DNA of 64,000 nt from Pedobacter steynii (lineage in GTDB: Bacteria; Bacteroidota; Bacteroidia; Sphingobacteriales; Sphingobacteriaceae): assembly GCF_900103665.1 (NCBI RefSeq), contig NZ_FNGY01000001.1, positions 124,001-188,000 on the forward strand. The letters run 5' to 3'. Numbering within the stretch: the stretch's first letter is position 1; each line of letters opens with the position of its first letter. Of the stretch, positions 560-52,475 are shown piece after piece. Both the position numbers and the translations under genes were made by a program. The notes under the pieces are model-generated. The model was not told the DNA's origin, searched no databases, and saw nothing but the letters and a program-made list of their open reading frames with translations.

Positions 560-3500
560 ATGCTGAAAAAAATCATTCAGTTTTCTATAAATAACAAGTT
601 AGTTATCGGACTATTTACCCTGGCATTAATTGCCTGGGGTGTCTATTCCCTTAAACAGTTACCTATAGATGCCGTTCCTGATATTACCAATAATCAGGTT
701 CAAGTAATTACCCTTAGTCCATCCCTGGCTACACAGGAGGTGGAACGTTTAATCTCTTACCCTGTAGAGCAAACCATGGCCACTATTCCGGAAATTGAAC
801 AGGTACGTTCGATCTCCAGATTCGGTCTTTCTGTAGTCACGATTGTATTTCACGACGATGTCGATATTTACTGGGCACGTCAGCAGGTCAATGAAAAACT
901 GGCGGAAGCCAAAAATAACATCCCCGGAGAGCTGGGCAATCCGGAAATCTCGCCGATCTCAACCGGTTTAGGGGAAATCTATCAATACGTGATTCATGCC
1001 AAACCCGGCTTTGAAAGTAAATACGATGCCCGGGAACTGAGAAGTATTCAGGACTGGATTGTACGTAAACAATTGCTCGGAACACCGGGGATTGCAGAAG
1101 TAAACAGCTTTGGCGGTTTACTGAAACAATACGAAATTGCCCTTGATCCGGACAAGCTGAGAAGTTTTGGATTGAGCATCAGCGAGGTGTTCAATGCCCT
1201 CGAAAAGAACAATAAAAATACGGGCGGCGCCTATATTGATAAAAAACCGAATGCCTATTTCATCAGATCTGAAGGCTTGGTTGGTAGTTTGGACGACATC
1301 AGAAAGATTGTCGTAAAGAACAACAGCAATGGCATTCCGGTCTTGATCCGAGATATTGCAGAGGTGAATATTGGGAATGCGATCAGATATGGCGCCTTAA
1401 CACGGGCTTCAAAAGACAGTCAGCGGGAAGCCGTAGGTGGCATCGTGATGATGCTGAAAGGTGCAAATGCGAACAATGTCGTGAAGCAGGTAAAAACAAA
1501 AATCGACCGGATCAATAAAACCCTGCCGGAGGGAGTGGTGATTGAACCTTTCCTTGACCGGAGCTCCCTGGTAGACCGTGCCATTGGAACAGTGGCAAAA
1601 AACCTGATCGAAGGGGCTTTAATCGTCATCTTTGTGCTCGTGCTGTTCCTGGGGAATTTCAGGGCAGGACTGGTCGTGGCTTCCGTGATCCCTCTGGCAA
1701 TGTTGTTTGCGATTGCGCTGATGAATGTATTCGGGGTCTCCGGGAACCTGATGAGCCTTGGGGCGATTGATTTCGGCCTGATTGTCGACGGTGCAGTCAT
1801 TATTGTGGAAGCAACGATGCACATGCTTGGCGGAACTAAGCTGGGCCGGCCGTATACACAGGCAGAGATGGACCAGCAGGTAGAAAAATCGGCAGTCCGG
1901 ATGATGAGTGCTGCGGCTTTCGGTCAGATCATTATCCTGATTGTTTACCTGCCTATCCTGGCTTTGGTTGGAATTGAAGGGAAGATGTTTGGACCGATGG
2001 CACAGACCGTTTCCTTTGCCATTATTGGCGCATTTATCCTGTCGCTCACCTATGTGCCGATGGTTTCTTCCCTCATTCTGAGCAAAAAAGTATCTGATAA
2101 AAAGAACTTCTCCGATAAGATGATGGATTTCTTCCTTCGTTATTATACCCCTGTGATCCGTGGCGCATTAAAACGGAGAATGCTCGTGATTGTAAGTTCA
2201 GTAGTGCTGCTGCTGATCAGTATCGGGTTGTTTATGAGAATGGGAGGGGAGTTTATTCCAACCCTGGAAGAAGGTGATTTTGCAGTTGAAACGAGGCTGC
2301 TCACCGGAAGTTCATTAAGTCAGAGTATTGACAAAATCAATCAGGCTTCCGGTATTCTGGTGAACAAATTCCCGGAAGTAAAAGAGGTGATTGGAAAGAT
2401 TGGATCGGCAGAAATCCCCACTGATCCGATGCCCATGGAGGCCACCGATCTGACGGTCATCCTGAAAGATAAAAAAGAATGGACCAGTGCCAGCACCAGA
2501 GAAGAACTGGCGGAAAAGATGGGCGCGGCACTGGCGCAAATCCCGGGGGTAAGCTTCGGCTTTTCTCAGCCTATTCAGCTGAGGTCGAATGAGCTGATCT
2601 CCGGAGTGCGACAGGACATTGGCATCAAGATTTTTGGAGATGACCTGGAGGAGTTAACGGCCTTATCTCAAAAGGTAGGTAAAATAGTGTCTTCTGTGAG
2701 CGGTGCAAAAGATTTGTACCTGGAACAGGCGACAGGCTTACCTCAGATTGTCGTGAAGATCAACAGAGATCGCATTGCGCAGTATGGCATCAGTATTGAA
2801 ACCGTAAATCAGGCCTTAAATACGGCATTTGCGGGACAGTCTGCGGGTTTGGTATACGAAGGAGAGAAAAGGTATGACCTCGTGGTCCGCCTGGCTCAGG
2901 CCAACAGGCAGGACATCAACGATGTGAAAAATGTCTATGTAACTGCACCCAATGGAAATCAGGTCACCCTGGACCAGCTGGCAGATGTAGAATTTAAGAT
3001 TGGCCCTAACCAGATTCAAAGAGAAGATACCAAGCGCAGAATCATTGTAGGCCTGAATGTAAGGGGAAGAGATATTGCCAGTGTGGTGACAGAGATTGAG
3101 CAAAAGATCAATCAGCAGATCAAACTTCCGGCAGGATATTACATCACCTATGGTGGTCAGTTTGAGAACCTGAAAGAGGCACAGCAAAGGCTGTCTATTG
3201 CCGTTCCGGTGGCTTTGTTGCTGATCTTGTTATTGCTTTATTTCTCCTTTGGTTCTGTGAAACAATCGGTGCTGATCTTCTCTGCCATCCCTATGGCCGC
3301 TATCGGCGGTATTTTTGCGCTTTTGCTTCGTGGAATGCCTTTTAGTATTTCTGCCGGGGTAGGCTTCATTGCGCTGTTCGGTGTAGCGGTATTGAACGGA
3401 ATTGTGCTGATCACCGAGTTCAACAGGTTGAAGAAAAATGGACTGGAAGACCTGAATGAAATTGTGCTCCAAGGGACCGCAATCCGGTTAAGACCGGTAC

Positions 3501-4936
3501 TGATGACGGCTGCAGTCGCTTCATTGGGTTTCTTACCGATGGCAATTTCTGCTGCCGCAGGCGCGGAAGTTCAAAAGCCTTTAGCCACAGTGGTGATTGG
3601 CGGATTGATTACTTCTACGATCCTCACCTTGATTGTACTTCCTGTGCTGTACACTTATTTTGAGCGCTTCAAGTCTAAGAAGAAAGGCAATGTACCTGTG
3701 ACCGTGATTGCCATCATTGCTGCTTTACTGTTTTTTGCACCCGGAGCTCAAGCGCAATCAACAGGAAATCCGATAACGATGGATCAGGCAATCGCCATTG
3801 CGATACAGAACAACCAGTCGGTAAGGTCTTCTGCTTTACAAATTGATCAGCAAAAAGCCTTGAAAGGAAGCTCTTTTGATCCCGGAAAGACGAGTATTGG
3901 TTTCCAATACGGGCAGATCAGCTCGGTTAAAAGAGACAACAACATCAGCGTTCAGCAGGGGATTCCCTATCCTGGTCTCGTGAAGAATCAGAAAAAGGTC
4001 TATGATGCCCAAATTAAAGGCGCGGAGATTAATCTTTCGGTGACGCAGAATGAGCTAAAGTATCAGGTAAAAACAGCCTATACGCAGCTGGCCTATCTGC
4101 TTGCCCTCAGGAAATTATACCAGAGTCAGGATTCGGTATACAGCAATTTTAAGAAAGCATCTACTTTCCGTTATCAGGCCGGAGAAACGAATCTGTTAGA
4201 AAAAACAACTGCAGAGACGCAATACTTTGAGGTGCAAAACCAGATGACAAGGAACGAATCCAGTATTGAAGTTTATACCGCTGAATTGCAAAAATTGATG
4301 AATACTACTGAGCCGGTGGTTCTTCCGGTACAGTCGTTCCGAAAGGAAGACTGGAAAGAAGGGGGCAACGACAGTGCGATGCTGAAAAATCCGTTGTTAG
4401 CTTATCAGCTACAACAGGTAACTATTGCCGATAGGACCATCGGGCTGGAAAAAGCGAAAGCGGGTCCTGATTTTACAATCGGCTATTTCAACCAGTCGAT
4501 CATCGGAACGCAGAGCGTAAACGGACAGGACCGCTTCTATGATGCCGGAAAACGCTTTCAGGGCATCCAGGCAGGCATCGCCTTGCCGCTGTTTTTTAAA
4601 CCTTTCTCTGCGAGAATCAAGGCGGCTAAAATAGAAAAGGAAGTAGCCCAAAGTCAGTTTGATGGTTTTAAAACCGGACTTCAGGCACAATATAAACAGG
4701 CTGATCAGGATTTGCTGAAGAACGCAAAAAGCATTGCTTATTATGAAAAGAATGCTTTGCCAAATGTGAACCTGATTCTGAAACAAAGCCAGATTGCCTT
4801 TAAGAATGGGGAGATTGGCTATGTAGAGCATTTACAGGCTTTGCGTACCTATTCGGAGATTCAGTTTAGCTATCTCCAGGCGATTAATCAATACAATCAA
4901 TCTGTTTACACCTTACAATACCTTATAGGTTTATAA
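560..4936 (+). CDS. cusA: CusA/CzcA heavy-metal RND pump fused to a CusC/TolC outer-membrane factor
   Basis: This 1458-aa protein carries two normally separate parts. Residues 1 to about 1040 are a complete heavy-metal-efflux RND transporter: first TM helix near residues 12-30, porter loops, and the proton-relay helix DFGLIVDGAVIIVE starting at D404. From about residue 1065 it reads as a TolC-type outer-membrane efflux protein (MDQAIAIAIQNNQSVRSSAL onward), with the coiled periplasmic helices and a C-terminal motif ending in QYLIGL. Between them, at about residues 1052-1070, sits a hydrophobic stretch ending in GAQAQ that looks like a retained signal peptide. The protein should expel Cu(I)/Ag(I) or related cations, driven by protons. 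Metal specificity (Cu rather than Zn/Co) is inferred from the neighbouring Cys-rich genes. No frameshift is seen. Confidence 0.93.
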   Translation: MLKKIIQFSINNKLVIGLFTLALIAWGVYSLKQLPIDAVPDITNNQVQVITLSPSLATQEVERLISYPVEQTMATIPEIEQVRSISRFGLSVVTIVFHDDVDIYWARQQVNEKLAEAKNNIPGELGNPEISPISTGLGEIYQYVIHAKPGFESKYDARELRSIQDWIVRKQLLGTPGIAEVNSFGGLLKQYEIALDPDKLRSFGLSISEVFNALEKNNKNTGGAYIDKKPNAYFIRSEGLVGSLDDIRKIVVKNNSNGIPVLIRDIAEVNIGNAIRYGALTRASKDSQREAVGGIVMMLKGANANNVVKQVKTKIDRINKTLPEGVVIEPFLDRSSLVDRAIGTVAKNLIEGALIVIFVLVLFLGNFRAGLVVASVIPLAMLFAIALMNVFGVSGNLMSLGAIDFGLIVDGAVIIVEATMHMLGGTKLGRPYTQAEMDQQVEKSAVRMMSAAAFGQIIILIVYLPILALVGIEGKMFGPMAQTVSFAIIGAFILSLTYVPMVSSLILSKKVSDKKNFSDKMMDFFLRYYTPVIRGALKRRMLVIVSSVVLLLISIGLFMRMGGEFIPTLEEGDFAVETRLLTGSSLSQSIDKINQASGILVNKFPEVKEVIGKIGSAEIPTDPMPMEATDLTVILKDKKEWTSASTREELAEKMGAALAQIPGVSFGFSQPIQLRSNELISGVRQDIGIKIFGDDLEELTALSQKVGKIVSSVSGAKDLYLEQATGLPQIVVKINRDRIAQYGISIETVNQALNTAFAGQSAGLVYEGEKRYDLVVRLAQANRQDINDVKNVYVTAPNGNQVTLDQLADVEFKIGPNQIQREDTKRRIIVGLNVRGRDIASVVTEIEQKINQQIKLPAGYYITYGGQFENLKEAQQRLSIAVPVALLLILLLLYFSFGSVKQSVLIFSAIPMAAIGGIFALLLRGMPFSISAGVGFIALFGVAVLNGIVLITEFNRLKKNGLEDLNEIVLQGTAIRLRPVLMTAAVASLGFLPMAISAAAGAEVQKPLATVVIGGLITSTILTLIVLPVLYTYFERFKSKKKGNVPVTVIAIIAALLFFAPGAQAQSTGNPITMDQAIAIAIQNNQSVRSSALQIDQQKALKGSSFDPGKTSIGFQYGQISSVKRDNNISVQQGIPYPGLVKNQKKVYDAQIKGAEINLSVTQNELKYQVKTAYTQLAYLLALRKLYQSQDSVYSNFKKASTFRYQAGETNLLEKTTAETQYFEVQNQMTRNESSIEVYTAELQKLMNTTEPVVLPVQSFRKEDWKEGGNDSAMLKNPLLAYQLQQVTIADRTIGLEKAKAGPDFTIGYFNQSIIGTQSVNGQDRFYDAGKRFQGIQAGIALPLFFKPFSARIKAAKIEKEVAQSQFDGFKTGLQAQYKQADQDLLKNAKSIAYYEKNALPNVNLILKQSQIAFKNGEIGYVEHLQALRTYSEIQFSYLQAINQYNQSVYTLQYLIGL

Positions 4937-6545: not shown

Positions 6546-6674
6546 ATGAAAAGGCGTCTATTTTCTCATATCGGATGGATAAGAATGCTGTTCTTTTGGA
6601 TATTATGCGTTTTTATGCTGATCGCGGTAGTGATGAAATTATGGCATTATTGCGCGGCACATTGGTTCAAATAA
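6546..6674 (+). CDS. Tiny single-pass membrane protein (42 aa)
   Basis: ATG at 6546 opens 42 codons (MKRRLFSHIGWIRM...AAHWFK) with a basic N-terminus, one hydrophobic helix (about residues 14-32) and a His/Cys/Trp-rich tail (KLWHYCAAHW). It starts 13 bases after the Csp-like gene and its stop codon lies inside the outer stem of the operon terminator, as expected for a real last gene. Function unknown; the His/Cys tail could bind metal, but that is speculation. It may instead be a chance ORF. Confidence 0.5.
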   Translation: MKRRLFSHIGWIRMLFFWILCVFMLIAVVMKLWHYCAAHWFK

Positions 6675-6706
6675 TCAAGGCTGGAATATTCCAGCCTTGA
6701 TTATTT
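6669..6706 (+). terminator. Terminator: 38-bp perfect palindrome closing the copper operon
   Basis: The 38 bases form an uninterrupted palindrome (19-bp arms, core GGAATATTCC) with A-rich left and T-rich right ends. It can work as a bidirectional intrinsic terminator. It marks the boundary between the copper operon and the AT-rich ATPase island. Confidence 0.75.
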
Positions 6707-6790
6707 ACGTGATAGCAAAAGAGACTTTTTTAGTAGGTCATTAATTGCTAATTAATCAGGGTTATTTCTCGTAGTTTGCCTTTTATGAAT

Positions 6791-6798
6791 TATCTTTG
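6791..6798 (+). promoter_or_regulatory. -7 box TATCTTTG for the ATPase/Toprim pair
   Basis: TATCTTTG is an exact match to TAnnTTTG and ends only 8 bases before the ATG at 6807. Transcription would start at or just before the start codon, giving a nearly leaderless mRNA. No clear TTG box was found at the usual -33 distance. Confidence 0.5.
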
Positions 6799-6806
6799 AA
6801 TTACAC

Positions 6807-8078
6807 ATGGATACAACAACGACTAATAACTATTCTTTTTTGAAAGCAGGACATTTTATCGGATATAAATCGATAGAGGTTCTTGATGTAAATTTAAAAA
6901 GGGGAATGAATATGATCATTGGACCTAACGGATCTGGAAAATCAAATTTTTTAGAGGTGGTCGTTGAAACGTTGAAGTCGGTAGGACCGAATAGAAAGAT
7001 CAACTTTAAGCATGTGGATTTGGTCTTTTGTACAAAAGGAAGTAAGGATCTTGTCTACGAGGTGACACGAAATATTCCAAAGTCTAATCATGACATTGAT
7101 TATGAAGAAAGGGAGATCTTAATAACACAAAAATTGACCTTTGACAACGAACTTATTTTTGATACAGATAACGATGAACTTAACCGTAATTCATTCAAGC
7201 GTTATAGAGGACGTATGGCTGGTAAAAATCTCCGGAATCTAATCTCATGTTTCACAGAGTTTTCGCCAACTCCTTTATATTTAAAATTTTCTATCCCTGA
7301 ATCGATGCCAGGGATTGATCGAGCGGGTTCAATTACTATTCCTTTAGGTTCGGAGGATGATATTTGGGATACAGATTTAGATTCCCCTTTTCTTTGGAAA
7401 GCTGTTTATATGGTTGAACATAAGGTTATTAATGCTTACTATCGGGAATACGAGGAATCAATTAATCAGGAAGCACTTGGAGAAGAAGAAGATAGAATTA
7501 GGTTTGATCACTTTCTAATTGAAACTATACAAGCAGATAATCTTTATGATATGTTATCTATGGATGAGGAGATTGTCGATAACCTTCGCAAATTCAGTCC
7601 AATCCAGAACATTCGTTTTAACAAGAACATTAATGTATTTCGTGATGAACGAAAAATAGTCGTTGAAAATCTTAGGCTTGATTTTTTTGTAAATAATAGC
7701 TGGATACCTTGGTCTCAGATGTCTGATGGAACTAAACGAATGTTCTACATTATATCAGAGGTCACTGACAAAAAAGAAGGATTCATACTTATTGAAGAAC
7801 CTGAATTAGGTATCCATCCGCATCAGTTTAATTTGATTATGCAGTTTTTAAAGGAACAGTCTGCCTATAAACAGTTTCTAATTTCTACTCACTCGCCCAA
7901 AGCTCTTGATCATCTCGATCCGGAAGAACTTGATAAAATTTTAATTGCAAAATACGTTGGTGGGGTAGGAACGGTATTGAATAATCTTGATGAAGTTCAA
8001 ATTGAAAAGGCTAAAGCATATATGGATGAGGTTGGCTTTCTAAGTGATTATTGGCTAATGTCAGATCTTGAAGGATGA
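6807..8078 (+). CDS. AAA/ABC-type ATPase (OLD-like) of a putative two-gene defence module
   Basis: A 423-aa ATPase with Walker A GPNGSGKSN at residues 39-47, a long inserted middle region, an ABC-signature-like MSDGTKRMF near 307-315, Walker B with catalytic Glu (FILIEEPELGIHP, about 327-338) and an H-loop (LISTHSPKAL) near 357. This is the architecture of OLD/RecF-like ATPases (AAA_15/AAA_21) found in many anti-phage systems such as PARIS, Gabija, Septu and some retrons. It overlaps the next gene by ATGA, so the two are translationally coupled. Base composition is visibly more AT-rich than the flanking copper and GH18 genes, which suggests horizontal gain. The defence role is inference; a DNA-metabolism role is possible. 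Confidence 0.85.
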   Translation: MDTTTTNNYSFLKAGHFIGYKSIEVLDVNLKRGMNMIIGPNGSGKSNFLEVVVETLKSVGPNRKINFKHVDLVFCTKGSKDLVYEVTRNIPKSNHDIDYEEREILITQKLTFDNELIFDTDNDELNRNSFKRYRGRMAGKNLRNLISCFTEFSPTPLYLKFSIPESMPGIDRAGSITIPLGSEDDIWDTDLDSPFLWKAVYMVEHKVINAYYREYEESINQEALGEEEDRIRFDHFLIETIQADNLYDMLSMDEEIVDNLRKFSPIQNIRFNKNINVFRDERKIVVENLRLDFFVNNSWIPWSQMSDGTKRMFYIISEVTDKKEGFILIEEPELGIHPHQFNLIMQFLKEQSAYKQFLISTHSPKALDHLDPEELDKILIAKYVGGVGTVLNNLDEVQIEKAKAYMDEVGFLSDYWLMSDLEG

Positions 8079-8671
8079 TCAATGTAGGACTTGTGGGTGA
8101 GGATCCTAATGATACTTCATCAATAAATAATCTTTTATCAAAGCAGTATGGTAGTGGCATTAAGTTTTTGAATCTGGTACGCGGTATACGTGGAACGCAG
8201 CTGGAAACTATCAAATTTAGAAATGCGCTTAAGATTGAACTTGAAAAGAAACAGGGTGAATTTGTCCTATTTATTCGCGATTTAGACGCATTCTCTTCTC
8301 AGGGAAATGAAGTGGAGAAAAGAAAGGCATGGTTTAAACTTTCAAGTGAACATTGTGGAGGAAAACATCACCTTTTTCTCTTGAATATATGGGAGCTGGA
8401 AGCGTTGATCTTTGGTGACATTGATTGTTTTAACAGCGCATATGGAACCTCGATTAAACCTGGGAGAAATCCTATGCAGATTCGAAATCCAAAAGAGGAA
8501 CTTCAGAATGCAACTTTTAAATCAAAAAAGAGGTTTGAAGCATCTCACTGTCCTGATATTTTTAGTAAGCTTGATCTAAATGAAATTAAATCAAATTGTC
8601 AAAATTTTAAGGAATTTTTAAACCAATTTGATAACTTATTGTTGAAAGAATACAAACTGAAATTTTCTTAG
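8075..8671 (+). CDS. Toprim/DUF4276-like protein, partner of the ATPase
   Basis: 198 aa. A Toprim-like pattern is visible: an early strand-loop with Glu (VGLVGEDPND, E9), a later strand ending in a DxD pair (VLFIRDLDAF, D69 and D71) and, near 104-112, NIWELEALI, which matches the WELEAL signature of DUF4276-type proteins. Toprim domains next to OLD-type ATPases usually act as nucleases or ribonucleases released or activated by the ATPase. The start codon overlaps the ATPase stop (ATGA), so stoichiometric production is likely. The family call rests on motif recognition only; the alternative is a DUF4435-like or uncharacterised effector. Confidence 0.7.
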   Translation: MINVGLVGEDPNDTSSINNLLSKQYGSGIKFLNLVRGIRGTQLETIKFRNALKIELEKKQGEFVLFIRDLDAFSSQGNEVEKRKAWFKLSSEHCGGKHHLFLLNIWELEALIFGDIDCFNSAYGTSIKPGRNPMQIRNPKEELQNATFKSKKRFEASHCPDIFSKLDLNEIKSNCQNFKEFLNQFDNLLLKEYKLKFS

Positions 8672-33869: not shown

Positions 33870-36551
33870 ATGGCAAAAGGCGTAAAAAAAATAAAATGGA
33901 CAGGGCAGGGGATTGTAAAAAATGAGCTATCAGTTCCGAATCAAAAGGTAGTCATTGCTCCTGACCAGGACGTGTTTTTTCAGGTGGGACAGTGGTATGA
34001 AAGTACTCCCGAGGCTGATAAGAAGAAGGCTGTAACCTGGATGTTCCAGGGCTGGAAAAAAAGAAATACTATTCTGGAAAAATCAGTGCCTGCGGGTTAT
34101 GCCTATGGCATTAAAATTCCGAAGAATCTTTGTGGTCCTTTTCAATATTACGTAGAAGCAAGCCTGTATCATAAAAAAGACCTGGCCAATCAGACCGGAT
34201 TGATTGTCAGCGGATATTGTCCTCCGAAAATAGTAACCAGTAAATGGTGTACCAGCAACGATGGGAAAGATGTACGCAAGGAACATGTTTTTTCTTATGG
34301 GGATGTCATATACCTCAATTTAACGACCGAAGGACTCAACGGACATGTAAATCTATCTGTGGATTTTTGCAGGCGCATTACCGGTACAGATGATCCTGTG
34401 ATATTTACACAAAAGAGTGTGGATGTGATTGATGGGGAGATCAACCTTGAATTGAGCAATACTTTTAAATGGTATGCCCAGGTGATCAGGCCAAACCCTG
34501 TCGATCAGTTTTATGTGAAGGTTTATGATCCTGCCAACAGAAAATACATCACCGATAGCAATAAGGATACGGAGCATGCACGGTTTTTACGGATTAAGAA
34601 TAAGGTTGCTTCTACAGTAACTAAAACCCCGTCAAATCTAACGCCTTTAAAAATCGGACAGGCAGACAAGAATCATCAGAGTTATGGTTTCTGCAAATAC
34701 ATTACGATCAAACAGAATCAAAAGCTTGTTTTTGATGAAGCTGATTTGCGCAATGGCAAAAAGAAGGAAAATGTAATACATCTGCATTATCTGGCTGGTG
34801 GAAGTGATAAGAACAAAACGATAAAGATAGAGTTAGGCGCTAAGGCGCCAGGTAAATGTGCAAACCATAAGGGGAAGGTATTTGACCTGGCGCCCTTGAA
34901 AAAGGCAGGGTTCATGAATGTTAAAAAGGACTCAGATGATGCGTTTTCATTTGATGTGAATTTTAAGTATAAGCATGAGAATGATTACATCGCCTTTTTC
35001 AAAGAATACTTTTTGCCCTCTCCTGCGATTGAGGCAAATTTACCATTGACTACCTGTGTCTATAGACATCTCCTGGATATTAATGTTCATCCTGATGTGG
35101 CCTGGGCAACTCATTTTAAATATGATCAACCTATAGGAGGTTTTTTTAGGGCCATTGATGTTAAAATCCAAAATGGCCTGGACGATGAGTTGAAATACCT
35201 GACCCCTTATCTTGTCGAAATTATAAAGTTTCAATATTCCGGTCTGCCAGATTTCATAACGAAGTTTATGGCGGATATGATCATGGATTATTTTATCAGC
35301 ACTGCTCAGAAGTTTGGATTCGGGATTCATGCTTATCATACTTTTGATGAAAGTGGAAATAAGCCTGCGGTAATTATGGATTATACCGCTAAATACCCCT
35401 GGATAGCAAAAGCAGTGATTATATATTGTGTTATTCTTTCCGTTTTAGTGGATGCGATCATCTTATACTTAACCCGTGGAAAAGGAGCGGCTACCAAAAT
35501 TGGAAAAGTCGCGTCGGCAGCCAGCAAATATGGTGGAAATGTAACCATTGCCATGAAGAGAAAAGGCTTTGAGTTTATTACCCCAAAGATCAGTGTGGTA
35601 AGAGCCAATTATTACGAGAAGCAAGCGGATGGAAGGATTGCCTTTGTACAGACAGAAAAAGTATTTGCACTGCCGTTGTTTGGGATACAATATGAAGACA
35701 AACATACACTGGGGAGCCTTGTGACTAGTGTTACTGGAATTGCGAAAGTCTTTGACTATGCACGGACAGCCATGACTATTTTTGGACACGTTAGTTTATT
35801 GAAGAAATTAGGTAAGAAATTCGGAGGTAGAAATTCTGCAGGTTCGTCTGGAACTGGATCCGGAGGTTCTTCCGGAGGTGCATCAGGTGATCAGGGGACT
35901 GGCGGAGAAAAAAAAGGGCCATCGATTATTAATACGAACGATATCAAAAGAGGGATCGACAATCTGGAAGAAGGTATTGAAAATAGTATCGATGGATTGT
36001 TTGAGAAGATAGGGCAAAAACTTAATTTCACGATCACGATAAAAGGAAAGTATGAAGCCAATTACGAAGTGATGATCAATCATTTGGTAGGTAGTGTCAG
36101 CATAAAAGACAGTCTTGAAAATTATGTAAATAATAGTAAGGGCATTATTGGTAGAAAAAAAGGAATAGATGCTGTTGCTTCATGTGAGCTTAAAGCAGGA
36201 TACCATGTGAAAACGGACTGGATTATGCGTTATGCTCCTGCGTTTATTAAAGGTGTAATGCCGGTAGTAGACAATGAAGCACGTGCTGATGGTAAGGCTG
36301 AAATACATGGCAGCCTGTTTTTTGAACGTAAATATACGTATGCGAAGCCCGAACCTTATTATGTGGATAATGTGATTTTTTCGGGTATTGCGGGGACTTT
36401 GTCGGGGAGTGTTAAAACTCGTGGGAAGGACCGTGAAGGCAAAAGTGTTACTATACCTGCGACACCATTTATATTGATGGAGCCCTATGTTGCGAAAGGA
36501 CAGAAAATATCTTTGTTGGATGATAAAATAATAAATGAGCCCAAATCATGA
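33870..36551 (+). CDS. Large putative T6SS cargo effector of unknown activity (893 aa)
   Basis: Not recognised. The N-terminal half (about 1-330) looks like consecutive beta-sandwich modules with scattered Cys (CGPFQYYVEASLYHK, GLNGHVNLSVDFCRR). A conserved-looking segment at 385-510 contains WATHFKYDQP and FGFGIHAYHTFDE. A hydrophobic, membrane-spanning stretch lies at about 512-534 (AKAVIIYCVILSVLVDAIIL). A Gly/Ser-rich linker spans about 654-690 and separates a C-terminal domain of roughly 200 residues ending in KIINEPKS. There is no signal peptide. It follows the PAAR-like gene and overlaps a putative immunity lipoprotein gene by ATGA. A pore-forming or membrane-inserting toxin would fit, but this is inference. 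Confidence 0.7.
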   Translation: MAKGVKKIKWTGQGIVKNELSVPNQKVVIAPDQDVFFQVGQWYESTPEADKKKAVTWMFQGWKKRNTILEKSVPAGYAYGIKIPKNLCGPFQYYVEASLYHKKDLANQTGLIVSGYCPPKIVTSKWCTSNDGKDVRKEHVFSYGDVIYLNLTTEGLNGHVNLSVDFCRRITGTDDPVIFTQKSVDVIDGEINLELSNTFKWYAQVIRPNPVDQFYVKVYDPANRKYITDSNKDTEHARFLRIKNKVASTVTKTPSNLTPLKIGQADKNHQSYGFCKYITIKQNQKLVFDEADLRNGKKKENVIHLHYLAGGSDKNKTIKIELGAKAPGKCANHKGKVFDLAPLKKAGFMNVKKDSDDAFSFDVNFKYKHENDYIAFFKEYFLPSPAIEANLPLTTCVYRHLLDINVHPDVAWATHFKYDQPIGGFFRAIDVKIQNGLDDELKYLTPYLVEIIKFQYSGLPDFITKFMADMIMDYFISTAQKFGFGIHAYHTFDESGNKPAVIMDYTAKYPWIAKAVIIYCVILSVLVDAIILYLTRGKGAATKIGKVASAASKYGGNVTIAMKRKGFEFITPKISVVRANYYEKQADGRIAFVQTEKVFALPLFGIQYEDKHTLGSLVTSVTGIAKVFDYARTAMTIFGHVSLLKKLGKKFGGRNSAGSSGTGSGGSSGGASGDQGTGGEKKGPSIINTNDIKRGIDNLEEGIENSIDGLFEKIGQKLNFTITIKGKYEANYEVMINHLVGSVSIKDSLENYVNNSKGIIGRKKGIDAVASCELKAGYHVKTDWIMRYAPAFIKGVMPVVDNEARADGKAEIHGSLFFERKYTYAKPEPYYVDNVIFSGIAGTLSGSVKTRGKDREGKSVTIPATPFILMEPYVAKGQKISLLDDKIINEPKS

Positions 36552-37579
36552 TTAAAAGAACATTAGTAATATTAACATTAGTCAACTTGTTTGTTGCCTG
36601 TGGACAAGAAAAAAAACAATCGACAAATACGAAAATTATGAACACACAATATCCTGAAATCAATGCAAATAATTTTGAGCAGAAAATATTCGAAAGTGTA
36701 AAACACTATCCGAAAGAACCTTTATATTATATGCGCATTAATAAAAGCAATTGTGTGCTTGAGGTATTGATTAACGATTATCCTGTTCATGATGATTATG
36801 AATTATCGAACTATGCAACACCATTGGAGATTAATGATGCAATATTAAAAAGTGGAGTGCAAAAACTGACATATCGTTTATACCCGGTGGGCAACTTAAT
36901 AAAGGAAGAATATGGAGAGGGGGATATCGTAACTACTTTAACAGATAATACCGCAATTTCGATATCGATCATAAGAATGGATAACAAAGGAGAAAAAACG
37001 ACCGAGCATGAGGAGGTTGTGATGAAACATACAAGTTTGGTTGACGATAAAGGCCGATTTGTTGCTGCTGGTAAACCATATTATGAATTTACTTTTGACT
37101 TTAATGCGGAAGTGCCATATACAAATGAAGGCTGGAGTAAAGGACAAGATTTAACGAAGTTAGATCAAAAAGTTCTCGAACAAAAAACAATAGAATTCTA
37201 TAAAGCGTATGCAAAGATTTATGAAAACAGAGGTACAGACTTACAAGCGAAATTAAAATTTGGTGAAGAAAGAAGGAATGCTGTTGCTTTTTATAAAAAA
37301 CAATCTGATATAGATGACTTATGGAAAGTCTATTTAAATCGTTTCGATTATAAGAATAAAAAAATCCAACCGATTGAAAATTATAAAATGGTATTTTTTG
37401 GTGAGGGAAAAATTGTATTTCTACTATCAAATTCTTTAGAATATCCTAACAGAGGAGCCGGTGCCTTAAGAGTTAATTATATAGATAAGGACGGTGATGA
37501 GGCCTTTTTTATACCAAATGTATCTCTCTATTTGCCGGAGGGTAGAAACATAGAAGATGGTTTATACATGGCTAATTAA
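36548..37579 (+). CDS. Lipoprotein, putative immunity protein (copy 1)
   Basis: 343 aa with a lipoprotein signal (MIKRTLVILTLVNLFVACG, lipobox Cys at 18). The mature part is not a known family. Its start overlaps the stop of the 893-aa gene (ATGA), so it is made together with that protein, the normal arrangement for toxin and immunity. It is clearly paralogous to the next gene over its whole length (for example YYMRINKSNCVLEVL and KPYYEFTF are shared). A periplasm-facing lipoprotein would neutralise an effector delivered to the periplasm. Strongly AT-rich compared with the vgrG end of the island. Confidence 0.7.
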   Translation: MIKRTLVILTLVNLFVACGQEKKQSTNTKIMNTQYPEINANNFEQKIFESVKHYPKEPLYYMRINKSNCVLEVLINDYPVHDDYELSNYATPLEINDAILKSGVQKLTYRLYPVGNLIKEEYGEGDIVTTLTDNTAISISIIRMDNKGEKTTEHEEVVMKHTSLVDDKGRFVAAGKPYYEFTFDFNAEVPYTNEGWSKGQDLTKLDQKVLEQKTIEFYKAYAKIYENRGTDLQAKLKFGEERRNAVAFYKKQSDIDDLWKVYLNRFDYKNKKIQPIENYKMVFFGEGKIVFLLSNSLEYPNRGAGALRVNYIDKDGDEAFFIPNVSLYLPEGRNIEDGLYMAN

Positions 37580-37582
37580 ATT

Positions 37583-38593
37583 GTGAAAGTAAGATTTGCT
37601 CTGTTTGGTGTTTTGATGTTGATTCTTGCTTGTGGGCCTGAAAGGAAATCGATTGATACTAAAATTGTAAACATACAATATCCGGAAATCAATGCTGCTA
37701 ATTTCGAGCAAAAATTAGTTGAAAGCGTTAAACATTATGCTAATGAGCCAATGTACTATATGCGTATCAATAAAAGTAATTGCGTATTAGAGGTATTGGT
37801 CAATGATTATCCTATGCATAAAGATTATAAGTTATCTAATTATGCGACTCCCTTGGACATAAACCGTGGCATTTTAAAGAGTGGAGAGCAAAAGCTAACC
37901 TATCGCTTATATCCCATAGGTGATTTGATAAAAGAAGAATATGGCGAGGGGGATAGCTCAATAACATTAACAGACAATACTTCAATATCCATATCTATCA
38001 TAAAAATGGATGGCAAAGGAGGTCAAACGCTGGAAGATGAACAAGTAGTGATGAAGCATAATAATTTGACAGATAGTAAAGGCCATTTCATTGCCTCTGG
38101 GAAACCCTATTATGAATTTACTTTTAATTTTAAAGCTGAAGTACCCTATGTAAACGAGGGTTGGAGTAAAGGACAGGATTTAACAAAATTAGATCAGGAG
38201 GTTCTTGAACAAAAAACACTGAAGTTTTATAAAGAATATGCAAGTGTATATGAAAGTAAGAATGCTGATTTGTTAGCGAAATTGAAATTTGGAACGGAAA
38301 GCAGAAATGCCGTTGCATTATATAAAAAAGAGCCGGATATAAAAGAGTTATGGAAAGAACTATTAGCAGATGTAAAGGCAAATAATACAAAAATACAACC
38401 TATAGAAAATTATAAAATGGTGTTTTTTGGTGATGGCAAGATCGTGTTCTTACTAACAAATTCTTTAAAGCCGGAATACAGGGGGCTCGGAGCTTTAGTG
38501 ATTGATAATGATGATTCAACATTAATGCCGGGTGTTTTTTTGTATCTACCAGAAGGAAAAAAGCTGGAAGATGGGCTATACATGGCTAATTAA
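37583..38593 (+). CDS. Lipoprotein, putative immunity protein (copy 2, tandem paralogue)
   Basis: 336 aa, GTG start, lipoprotein signal MKVRFALFGVLMLILACG with Cys 17. It shares most of its mature sequence with the gene upstream (NKSNCVLEVL, GEGD.., NEGWSKGQDLTKLDQ, IQPIENYKMVFFG.GKIVFLL), while signal peptides and the far C-terminal loops differ. The 3-base gap and identical junction sequence at its own 3' end show tandem duplication. The second copy may protect against a variant effector carried by relatives. Confidence 0.7.
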   Translation: MKVRFALFGVLMLILACGPERKSIDTKIVNIQYPEINAANFEQKLVESVKHYANEPMYYMRINKSNCVLEVLVNDYPMHKDYKLSNYATPLDINRGILKSGEQKLTYRLYPIGDLIKEEYGEGDSSITLTDNTSISISIIKMDGKGGQTLEDEQVVMKHNNLTDSKGHFIASGKPYYEFTFNFKAEVPYVNEGWSKGQDLTKLDQEVLEQKTLKFYKEYASVYESKNADLLAKLKFGTESRNAVALYKKEPDIKELWKELLADVKANNTKIQPIENYKMVFFGDGKIVFLLTNSLKPEYRGLGALVIDNDDSTLMPGVFLYLPEGKKLEDGLYMAN

Positions 38594-38620
38594 ATTGTGA
38601 AAGTAAGATTTGCTCTGTTT
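38577..38620 (+). repeat. Second copy of a 44-bp direct repeat: stub of a third lipoprotein gene
   Basis: 44 bases here are identical to 37563-37606, where they span the end of copy 1, the 3-base gap and the first 24 bases of copy 2. After 38620 the identity stops. The sequence therefore holds the GTG start and first eight codons of a third copy (from 38597) that is otherwise lost. It shows past expansion and contraction of the array by recombination. Confidence 0.85.
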
Positions 38621-38699
38621 TGTATCGATTTCTTGCTGGTGAAAAGAAAATACAACTTGAGTGCCTTTTTCCGGGTATTTAAGAAGAGCTATTATCCAA

Positions 38700-40613
38700 C
38701 TAAAACAGCTGTATCGTAGTGGCATTTTGTGCAGCTGCGGGCGTACTCATTTTCTTTTTCAGCAACTCATGTATCTTTTTCATCAGTAAATGTGGATCCT
38801 CCCAATTGCTGGCTTCTGCGGCAATTTCTGTAGCGGTACGCATTTTATACAGCTTATTTTCTGCTGCTAAACGATGCTGCTGGAATAAGTGAACCAGTTT
38901 CTGATCGGATTTACTTTTAGGTTTTCCGCGGATCTGTTTATTCAGGGGATTGATGACCTGCAGACTGATCTCTTTTGCAAAGTAATTGAAGGCCGCTTCA
39001 ATTCTCGCATGAATGGCTTTATGGTCCTTTAAGCCACTGTCTTTCTGTAATTGACGAAGCTGAGACTGGAAACGTAAAGAGAGGTCCTGAAGGGCTTCTT
39101 CAGACCTGTTGAGGCTCCCAATCATTGACCTTAGTTCGGCGTCATTAGACTTCATGATTTCATGGTCTGATGTCACTGTATTCAAAGACTCGATTACCTC
39201 CTGGAAAGAGAACACATTACTGAATAAATAAATGATATACCTTTCCTGTGATAAAGATAACAATTCGCTCAGTTCATCCTCATTACCGGTATTCATATAG
39301 TTCAGCACTTCTATATTTGAGCGCAGGCTTTCTTTATTGATTTTGGAACGGAGGATCAGCCCGTTTAAGGTACGTACCCTGCTTAAAGCCACATACACCT
39401 GTCCTGAAACAAAGGAGTTTCCGGCATCGATGATGGCACTGTCAAAGGTTAAACCCTGACTTTTATGGATCGTTACTGCCCAGGCGAGCTTAATCGGAAA
39501 CTGATAAAACTCTCCTACCTGCTGTTGAACGATGGCCTGATTTTCATTGGCTTTATATTCAAATGATTGCCAGGAAGCCCTTTCTAAAAGCAGGTCTTCC
39601 TCATCAGGAAAAGAAATATAGATCTCTTCTCCTGCGATAGACTTTACTTTTCCAATTTTACCGTTATAGAATTTTCTGTTTTCTCCGGTATCGTTCTTAA
39701 TGAACATCACCTGAGCACCTATTTTTAGTCGCAGGGACTGTTCTACCGGAAGGGTTTGGATATTGAGTGTCCCGTCTATCTGCCCTTCAAAAATATAATC
39801 GTCACCTTCCAGTTCATCGAGTTTCTCATTGTTCACCGCATTGGCCTCTGCATTATGAGAGGTAATGATAATGTGATTCGATCCTTCTGCCTGTTTAAAA
39901 TCAGGATCGAAGCGCTGGTTTAGAATGTCCAGTCTGGCATCACCAATCTGGTTGTTCCTGATGTCGTTCAGGATGTCTACAAATTCAGGTTCTGTTTGAC
40001 GGAATACCTTTTTGAGCTCAACCTGCAGTAAAGGGTGTTGTTTCACTACCGTGGCTTCAAAAAAATAGGGAGAAGGGTATATTTTGCTTAGCAACTCCCA
40101 GTCTTCCCTTTTGGTGACCGGGGGCAGTTGAAATAAATCGCCAATCAGCAGGAGTTGCACACCGCCAAAAGGCGCGTCATTTTTCCTGACCATCCTTAGT
40201 ATAGCATCTACTGCATCAATCACATCGCATCTCACCATGGAAACCTCGTCGATGATCATCAGTTCCAGTTCTGTGAGCAAGCTTTTTCTTTCTCTGGAAT
40301 AGTTAAGTTCTGTGAGCAGGGTTTTGATCGAGACCACACCGGCCCTTAAGCTGGCCAGGTTCACATCACCCGGAAAAAAGGAACCTGGAGGAAGCTGGAA
40401 CAGCGAGTTGATCGTTACTCCTTTTGCATTCATCGCTGCAACTCCTGTCGGGGCAACGATCACCGTCTTCTTTGCAGTCGTTTCTTTGATTTTTCTGAGT
40501 AAAGTGGTTTTCCCCGTTCCGGCTTTTCCGGTCAGAAAGATGCTTTGATTGGTATATTCAATAAACGATATGACTTTATCAAAAATTTCATTAGAAGGGT
40601 CCACAGTACTCAT
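38700..40613 (-). CDS. Pif1/RecD2-like superfamily 1 helicase
   Basis: 637 aa. Motif I (FLTGKAGTGKTTLL) is near residues 24-37, motif II is IIDEVSM, motif III GGVQLLLIGDLFQLPP, and the C-terminal UvrD-like fold carries AVTIHKSQGLTFD and YVALSRVRTLNGLILRS (motifs V/VI). The C-terminal 170 residues are helical and charged. Proteins of this type unwind DNA 5'-3', including G-quadruplex and R-loop structures. Not linked to the T6SS island: it lies on the opposite strand and converges on it. Confidence 0.88.
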   Translation of the reverse strand: MSTVDPSNEIFDKVISFIEYTNQSIFLTGKAGTGKTTLLRKIKETTAKKTVIVAPTGVAAMNAKGVTINSLFQLPPGSFFPGDVNLASLRAGVVSIKTLLTELNYSRERKSLLTELELMIIDEVSMVRCDVIDAVDAILRMVRKNDAPFGGVQLLLIGDLFQLPPVTKREDWELLSKIYPSPYFFEATVVKQHPLLQVELKKVFRQTEPEFVDILNDIRNNQIGDARLDILNQRFDPDFKQAEGSNHIIITSHNAEANAVNNEKLDELEGDDYIFEGQIDGTLNIQTLPVEQSLRLKIGAQVMFIKNDTGENRKFYNGKIGKVKSIAGEEIYISFPDEEDLLLERASWQSFEYKANENQAIVQQQVGEFYQFPIKLAWAVTIHKSQGLTFDSAIIDAGNSFVSGQVYVALSRVRTLNGLILRSKINKESLRSNIEVLNYMNTGNEDELSELLSLSQERYIIYLFSNVFSFQEVIESLNTVTSDHEIMKSNDAELRSMIGSLNRSEEALQDLSLRFQSQLRQLQKDSGLKDHKAIHARIEAAFNYFAKEISLQVINPLNKQIRGKPKSKSDQKLVHLFQQHRLAAENKLYKMRTATEIAAEASNWEDPHLLMKKIHELLKKKMSTPAAAQNATTIQLF

Positions 40614-51923: not shown

Positions 51924-52475
51924 ATGAGTCAACTAAAGAATGTGATCATTCCAGAGGAACTGATCGTTAGTAAAATATATCTGATCAGGGGACAAAAGGT
52001 GATGATCGATCGCGATCTTTCAGAAATGTATGGTGTAGAAACCAGGGTGTTGAATCAGGCGATAAAGCGAAATGCAAAGCGTTTTCCTCCGGATTTTATG
52101 TTCCAGCTAACCGTACAGGAATTGTCGGATTGGAAGTCACAAAATGTGATATCCAATAAGGAAAAAATGGGGCTAAGGAAATTACCTAAGGTCTTCACTG
52201 AACAGGGGGTAGCGATGTTATCAAGCGTTCTTAACAGCGAGACCGCCATAGCGGTAAACATCAGGATCATCAGAACATTTACACGCATCAGGCAAATGCT
52301 GACAGACCATACAGACCTTCGTCTGGAGGTGGAACAGATCAAAAAGAAGCTGGACCATCAGGACAAAAATATGGAAGCTGTATTTCAGTATCTGGATGAA
52401 TTGCTGGTGAGGAAAGAAGCGCCCGAACCTGATCGGAAAAGTATTGGTTATCAGTTTGGTTCCGGTAAATCTTAA
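51924..52475 (+). CDS. ORF6N-domain DNA-binding protein
   Basis: 183 aa. The ORF6N domain occupies about residues 8-95: YLIRGQKVMIDRDLSEMYGV, ETRVLNQAIKRNAKRFPPDF then MFQLT..E. and FTEQGVAMLSSVLNSETAIA. A helical coiled segment (LRLEVEQIKKKLDHQDKNME) and a basic tail follow. ORF6N/KilA-N-like proteins occur in phages and as chromosomal genes in Bacteroidota; the function is unknown, likely DNA binding. It lies 33 bases after the glycosylase gene and overlaps the 3' end of the convergent Crp/Fnr gene by 4 bases. Confidence 0.87.
   Translation: MSQLKNVIIPEELIVSKIYLIRGQKVMIDRDLSEMYGVETRVLNQAIKRNAKRFPPDFMFQLTVQELSDWKSQNVISNKEKMGLRKLPKVFTEQGVAMLSSVLNSETAIAVNIRIIRTFTRIRQMLTDHTDLRLEVEQIKKKLDHQDKNMEAVFQYLDELLVRKEAPEPDRKSIGYQFGSGKS

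Follow-up and report, generated by a model that had tools for sequence, protein, structure and literature searches.

The DNA analysed here is a 64,000-nt stretch of Pedobacter steynii (assembly GCF_900103665.1, contig NZ_FNGY01000001.1, positions 124,001 to 188,000), hereafter the window, in which two genes of interest lie head to tail on the plus strand, as do all gene motifs given below. The first (6807..8078) encodes a 423-residue ABC ATPase of the SMC/OLD/PtuA type, with Pfam matches to AAA_21 (3.2e-24) and AAA_15 (2.8e-16), and the second (8075..8671) a 198-residue DUF4276 (PF14103) protein, a predicted Toprim nuclease termed the effector here. Both overlapping open reading frames (ORFs) named by a first-pass annotation of the sequence are present, with the four nucleotides ATGA common to them. 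The AT-richness it described is likewise real: the guanine plus cytosine (GC) content of the pair is 34.6% versus 41.6% for the window and below that of both neighbours, and comparable AT-richness was observed in 5 of 249 stretches of equal size, all within 36001-38865. Its nearly leaderless promoter is supported by a -7 box, TATCTTTG (6791..6798), located 8 nt 5' of the ATPase ATG and named for TAnnTTTG, which we take to be the Bacteroidota-type -7 consensus; the leader of the ATPase transcript is predicted to be only a few bases long. Since 24 of 40 relatives carry TAnnTTTG in the 60 nt preceding the ATPase, against a mean of 2.9 and a maximum of 9 in 500 Markov resamplings, the box is no accident. 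A second element, TTTG, was looked for 17-23 nt upstream of the -7 box and none was found. Upstream of the pair, a perfect inverted repeat (6669..6706) folds into 17 pairs with an energy of -25.5 kcal/mol (z -8.0), with no equally stable fold among 200 shuffles. The palindrome reported earlier is therefore present, while its role as a transcription terminator of the upstream genes is likely only, since a terminator scan scored no classical terminator. Downstream, the adjacent gene encodes a GH18-type hydrolase on the opposite strand.

The two genes are one unit, obligately paired and co-inherited. When GTDB genomes were scanned with 35 aligned homologues as the query, 48 loci (numbered L below) were recovered, of which, by their titles, 47 belong to Bacteroidota and one to Ignavibacteria. 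The ATPase is directly upstream of the effector in 46 of them, and the remaining two (L046, L047) end at a contig edge. In 46 of 47 pairs, the window pair included, the gene junction measures -14 to +12 nt; the exception is L036, in which the effector frame is broken. In L017 and L048 the frame of the effector stops early, at 116 and 115 aa. Furthermore, distances among ATPases and among effectors (40 each) are correlated at r = 0.75, a value reached in none of 2000 permutations.

The motifs of the ATPase are intact. The 41 ATPases aligned omit six of 46 loci (L017, L026, L027, L028, L036, and L045), whose frames are short or partial from the choice of start. In all 41, G39, N41, G44, and K45 of Walker A (GPNGSGKS, residues 39-46, 6921..6944) are retained, as are the ABC signature SDG (residues 306-308, 7722..7730), E330, E331, and E333 of Walker B (FILIEEPE, residues 326-333, 7782..7805), and the switch (H-loop) histidine H362 (7890..7892). 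The head of the protein resembles the DNA-engaging heads of SMC/Rad50. The C-terminal tail LSDYWLMSDLE (residues 412-422, 8040..8072) is a predicted docking peptide for the effector: Y415, W416, L421, and E422 are invariant in all 41 ATPases, and the segment from W416 onward forms the final 7-12 residues in each. In a model of the protein alone, residues 421-423 have a predicted local distance difference test (pLDDT) score below 50.

Regarding the effector, the DUF4276 style suggested at first sight was borne out by the Pfam search (E = 6.9e-12; 46.4 bits, above the gathering cut-off of 30.2), and E9, D69/D71, and the WELEAL motif are found where the first-pass annotation placed them. Conservation was assessed in 83 of 85 homologues, two short fragments being left out. 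The OLD Toprim active site has six metal-ligand positions, and the effector family conserves all of them, each in 82 or 83 of its 83 members. E9 and D13 (8099..8113; 82/83 and 83/83), the predicted Toprim glutamate and its +4 acidic partner, match E400/E404 and E377/D381 of the OLD templates. D69 and D71, separated by a leucine (8279..8287; both 83/83), are the predicted DxD metal ligands and match D455/D457, while E107 and E109 in WELEAL (8393..8401; 82/83 and 83/83) are the predicted metal-B ligands and match T506/E508 and S478/E480. K140 (8492..8494; 83/83) is a candidate for the residue that would correspond to K562, the catalytic lysine of OLD (PMC6755086).

The Toprim relationship was also approached by profile comparison. 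A direct hhalign comparison of the 83-member effector family with the OLD Toprim alignment gave no match (probability 1.1, score 17.9, shuffles up to 17.5), so that the link had to run via canonical DUF4276, sampled as the 30 best-scoring loci of the phylum with DNA, from 56 matching genomes among 296. The window family aligns with canonical DUF4276 over 186 columns (probability 95; score 57, at most 16 in shuffles), and canonical DUF4276 aligns with OLD Toprim over 21 columns around VEGxTE (probability 59; score 35, at most 11 in shuffles). Searches of PDB sequences with the effector, both as a single sequence and as a profile, returned nothing credible; the list of 50 structural matches to the effector does not include AriB, and a viral fold library gave no match below 1e-3.

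The pair is accessory, with broken copies and empty sites. It is present as a single copy in its own genome and, besides this, in 4 of 59 congeners and in none of 39 members of other families. The copy in genome G005 contains one stop inside the matched stretch, and none when a Mucilaginibacter effector is used as the query; that query has matches in 8 of 201 family genomes, the own genome counted. Interrupted window-type copies occur in G193 and G336. Pedobacter sp. L105 (L002) is the closest relative with a name; its effector is 78% and its ATPase 62% identical, and the DNA it shares with the window comprises the promoter and genes only (6772-6955 and 7482-8632 by blastn, extending to 8671 by tblastx); its flanks gave no match to the window at 1e-3 with either program. 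The pair separates pheT from radC in two Mucilaginibacter genomes, and in 16 of 30 related genomes (genus g76) the gap between the matched ends of these two measures 230-1385 bp and contains no match to either gene of the pair; the other 14 radC loci have no pheT within reach and are not part of the empty-site count. For the window pair itself, the flanks (a DUF326 protein and GH18) were jointly matched in none of 59 relatives, the own genome excepted; they match in different relatives, and consequently no common empty site is readable for this insertion. The GC content of the pair is below that of its flanks in 38 of 39 relatives' loci, with a mean difference of 8.6 points, and the ATPase tree largely tracks host families, with one supported exception that joins P. 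changchengzhani (L022) and Rufibacter (L023). Taken together, the patchy presence, empty sites, GC content, and ATPase tree indicate that the pair has been gained, lost, and relocated within families, and do not point to rampant long-range transfer. No relative was found in IMG/VR, among INPHARED phages (50,697 phage records), or among PLSDB plasmids (72,556 records). Conserved synteny as core genes and a match to a housekeeping family, either of which would have spoken against a defence role, were both looked for and neither was seen.

According to PMC12796447 and PMC10568477, class 4 of the OLD systems is defined by an ATPase and a Toprim protein on separate genes. In PARIS, the AriA and AriB system of this class, AriA is described as sequestering the Toprim nuclease AriB until a phage protein frees it, whereupon AriB cuts tRNA and halts translation (PMC11455837, PMC12409363). 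The division of labour in PARIS is shared by the window pair at the sequence level, and a mechanism of keeper or sensor ATPase and released nuclease is therefore proposed. The ATPase would act as sensor and keeper, holding the nuclease silent, with its invariant C-terminal tail SDYWxxSDLE serving as a putative leash that tethers the nuclease. On infection, a phage product may be the trigger that releases the effector, which, as a Toprim-fold two-metal nuclease, would then cut nucleic acid; cutting of host tRNA or DNA would arrest the infected cell. With moderate confidence, we thus read the pair as an accessory ABC ATPase with a DUF4276 predicted two-metal Toprim nuclease, probably acting in PARIS-like, split-OLD abortive infection. 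The directly supported parts of this reading are the two genes with their pairing, co-inheritance and patchiness, the motifs retained in the ATPase, the invariance of the active-site residues, and the alignment of the effector with canonical DUF4276 (HEC-01B). A further-reaching version is put forward tentatively: alongside PARIS there may be a second split-OLD class that has DUF4276 as a whole for its dedicated Toprim nuclease, and in which the window pair founds a catalytic clade (DxD and PK, versus DxY and PSK) and a partner-specific aromatic peptide at the ATPase C-terminus (SDYWxxSDLE here, YSxGELW in HEC-01) forms the leash until the phage trigger arrives.

Two points weigh against the PARIS-like reading. 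The Toprim fold of the effector is probable, not proven. Moreover, the neighbourhood gives no defence-island support, the near neighbours being mostly housekeeping genes. For this comparison, ORFs of at least 80 aa were called mechanically, and 148 of 171 neighbours (at least 90 aa, within two genes of the pair) were scanned, leaving out the 23 longest. PADLOC at 1e-10 matched 30 families, none with more than three members; among the 25 families listed, mad3 matched three members and PDC-S48 and DEDDh two each, and single matches were to PDC-S01, PDC-S22, PDC-M31A, SspA/DndA, QatD, HNH and, in L024, AbiLi/AbiLii. Some of these models match common enzymes too. In the Pfam ranking, of which 25 of 174 families are listed, the commonest matches, with three members each, were IMPDH, SDR, adenylosuccinate lyase, ABC transporter, AAA_21, CBS, and a secretion-sorting domain. 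In the window itself, one of ten proteins scanned with PADLOC matched, a PDC-S05/ORF6N protein 43 kb from the pair. The co-occurrence with defence genes by which the first-pass annotation proposed to check its suggestion was thus largely not seen, and with few defence neighbours the argument from guilt by association is weakened.

Other explanations can be weighed against the same observations. The active-site layout follows the DNA-cutting OLD enzymes position by position, which, with an ATPase head of the SMC/Rad50 DNA-engaging kind, would suit an OLD- or Gabija-like complex whose ATPase and Toprim subunit stay joined and cut invading DNA directly, gated by the level of nucleotides or by DNA ends and without any release. 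We regard this as unlikely, since the genes are separate as in PARIS, no helicase gene is an immediate neighbour, and the terminal tail of the ATPase has the appearance of a docking peptide. Insertion between core genes, broken copies, and the two-gene overlap would also be in keeping with a toxin-antitoxin module maintained by addiction or plasmid competition and having no anti-phage role; this is distinctly improbable, given that the plasmid and phage records contain no relative and that defence candidates and AriA are the best relatives in PADLOC. Finally, the SMC/Rad50-like ATPase could point to chromosome maintenance or the cell cycle, for which the archaeal OLD protein Cran1 offers a precedent according to PMC12796447, but in 55 of 59 congeners and 193 of 201 family genomes no such pair was found, making such a role hardly credible.

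If the PARIS-like reading is true, a Bacteroidota family weakly matched by PADLOC models joins the split ATPase-Toprim systems, and the PARIS arrangement arose, or persisted, with a second effector family. In Pfam, DUF4276 is a family of unknown function, and neither DUF4276 nor PF14103 was named in the literature searched. The residue template makes this family open to test as a predicted two-metal nuclease, with six ligands, a candidate lysine, and a putative docking peptide specified.

Elsewhere in the window, the PDC-S05/ORF6N protein is encoded at 51924-52475 (plus strand; 183 aa; PADLOC candidate PDC-S05, 1.1e-62; Pfam ORF6N, 1.3e-33). The sole other stretch as AT-rich as the pair, 36001-38865, contains ORFs at 36548-37579 and 37583-38593 without a Pfam match at 1e-3. 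A 1458-aa ORF at 560-4936 (plus strand) is presumably a CusA/CzcA-type resistance-nodulation-division pump with a TolC-like part fused C-terminally.

Comparison with known systems places the pair more exactly. The first-pass annotation had proposed a PARIS-, Gabija- or Septu-like architecture, of which the separate adjacent genes of PARIS stand, whereas Septu and Gabija do not. As in PARIS, an ATPase and a Toprim-type effector are encoded by separate adjacent genes, and the AriA model matches the window ATPase at 1.3e-24; the effector, however, matches only DUF4276 and not DUF4435, which we take to be the family of AriB. DUF4435 was searched for in the own genome without a match, and a survey of 118 genomes of the phylum gave one locus. 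With OLD classes 1-2, GajA included, the effector shares the six Toprim metal-ligand positions and the order of elements, but OLD is a single chain and the window pair two genes. An OLD-like Toprim protein (L099; 661-aa frame, G000:C35:6981-7172) is located elsewhere in the same genome. The pair differs from Gabija in having two chains in place of the single chain of GajA, with no helicase resembling the UvrD-like GajB as an immediate neighbour. It differs from the PtuA-PtuB pairs of Septu and retrons in that the effector matches DUF4276 and not the HNH family of PtuB, and in that the stretch of PtuA past residue 476 has no counterpart. Although the ATPase matches AbiLi (2.2e-18) and mad3 (3.1e-17), the second gene matches neither AbiLii nor mad4 at E values up to 1, and the NCBIfam model MAD3 (NF047739) scores 68.2 bits against a cut-off of 420. 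At L024 (3508-5187), AbiLi/AbiLii genes immediately precede a window-type pair, so that two systems of ATPase and effector stand back to back.

The closest catalogued system is HEC-01, whose models are the best PADLOC families for the window pair (HEC-01A 4.5e-25, HEC-01B 1.1e-5). The HECs were identified by Payne et al. (2024 preprint, as cited in PMC12988326) through guilt-by-embedding screening, and several, HEC-06 included, are antiviral according to PMC12988326. A literature search for HEC-01 returned titles with unrelated uses, one for MAD3 mainly the spindle checkpoint, and a joint search nothing. HEC-01 and the window pair have a common gene order, an AAA ATPase (A) adjacent to a DUF4276 protein (B), and an aromatic peptide at the ATPase C-terminus; an ATPase of the same kind is found just upstream in 30 of the 30 canonical DUF4276 loci. 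The model scores of the window pair are nevertheless below the level of canonical members, which reach 1.3e-17 to 3.3e-79 for HEC-01B (five tested) and 1.6e-126 to 1.8e-148 for HEC-01A (three tested). Four other pairs of the window clade score 5.8e-10 to 2.9e-4 for HEC-01B, and their ATPases match AriA about as well as HEC-01A. In addition, the window-family profile recovers 5 of the 30 canonical proteins at 1e-3. At the positions of window E9, D13, and D69, canonical proteins carry E (26/30), E (24/30), and D (27/30), and both E107 and E109 are E in 29/30. The DxD of the window clade, by contrast, is DxY in 25/30, with Y at D71, and its PK is PS, with S at K140 in 24/30; DxY, in place of the DxD of the window family and OLD, may mean that a different metal site is in use. 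The ATPase tails differ as well, SDYWxxSDLE in the window versus a YSxGELW-like peptide in HEC-01. Two loci are intermediate between HEC-01 and the window clade, with the ATPase tail YSLGxLFKSGELE: L177 (HEC-01B 1.3e-17, window profile 7.8e-8) and L176 (window profile 4.5e-7). From the alignment to canonical DUF4276 and the weaker HEC-01 scores, the window pair is placed as a sister clade. The earlier suggestion of a candidate new anti-phage system consequently holds in part: PADLOC matches, pairing, and patchiness agree with an accessory, defence-type ATPase and DUF4276/Toprim-like pair, while "new system" is too strong, since ATPase and DUF4276 pairs are already catalogued as HEC-01. Judged by its sequence, the window pair is HEC-01 by architecture and outside it by model score, with an active-site signature of its own.
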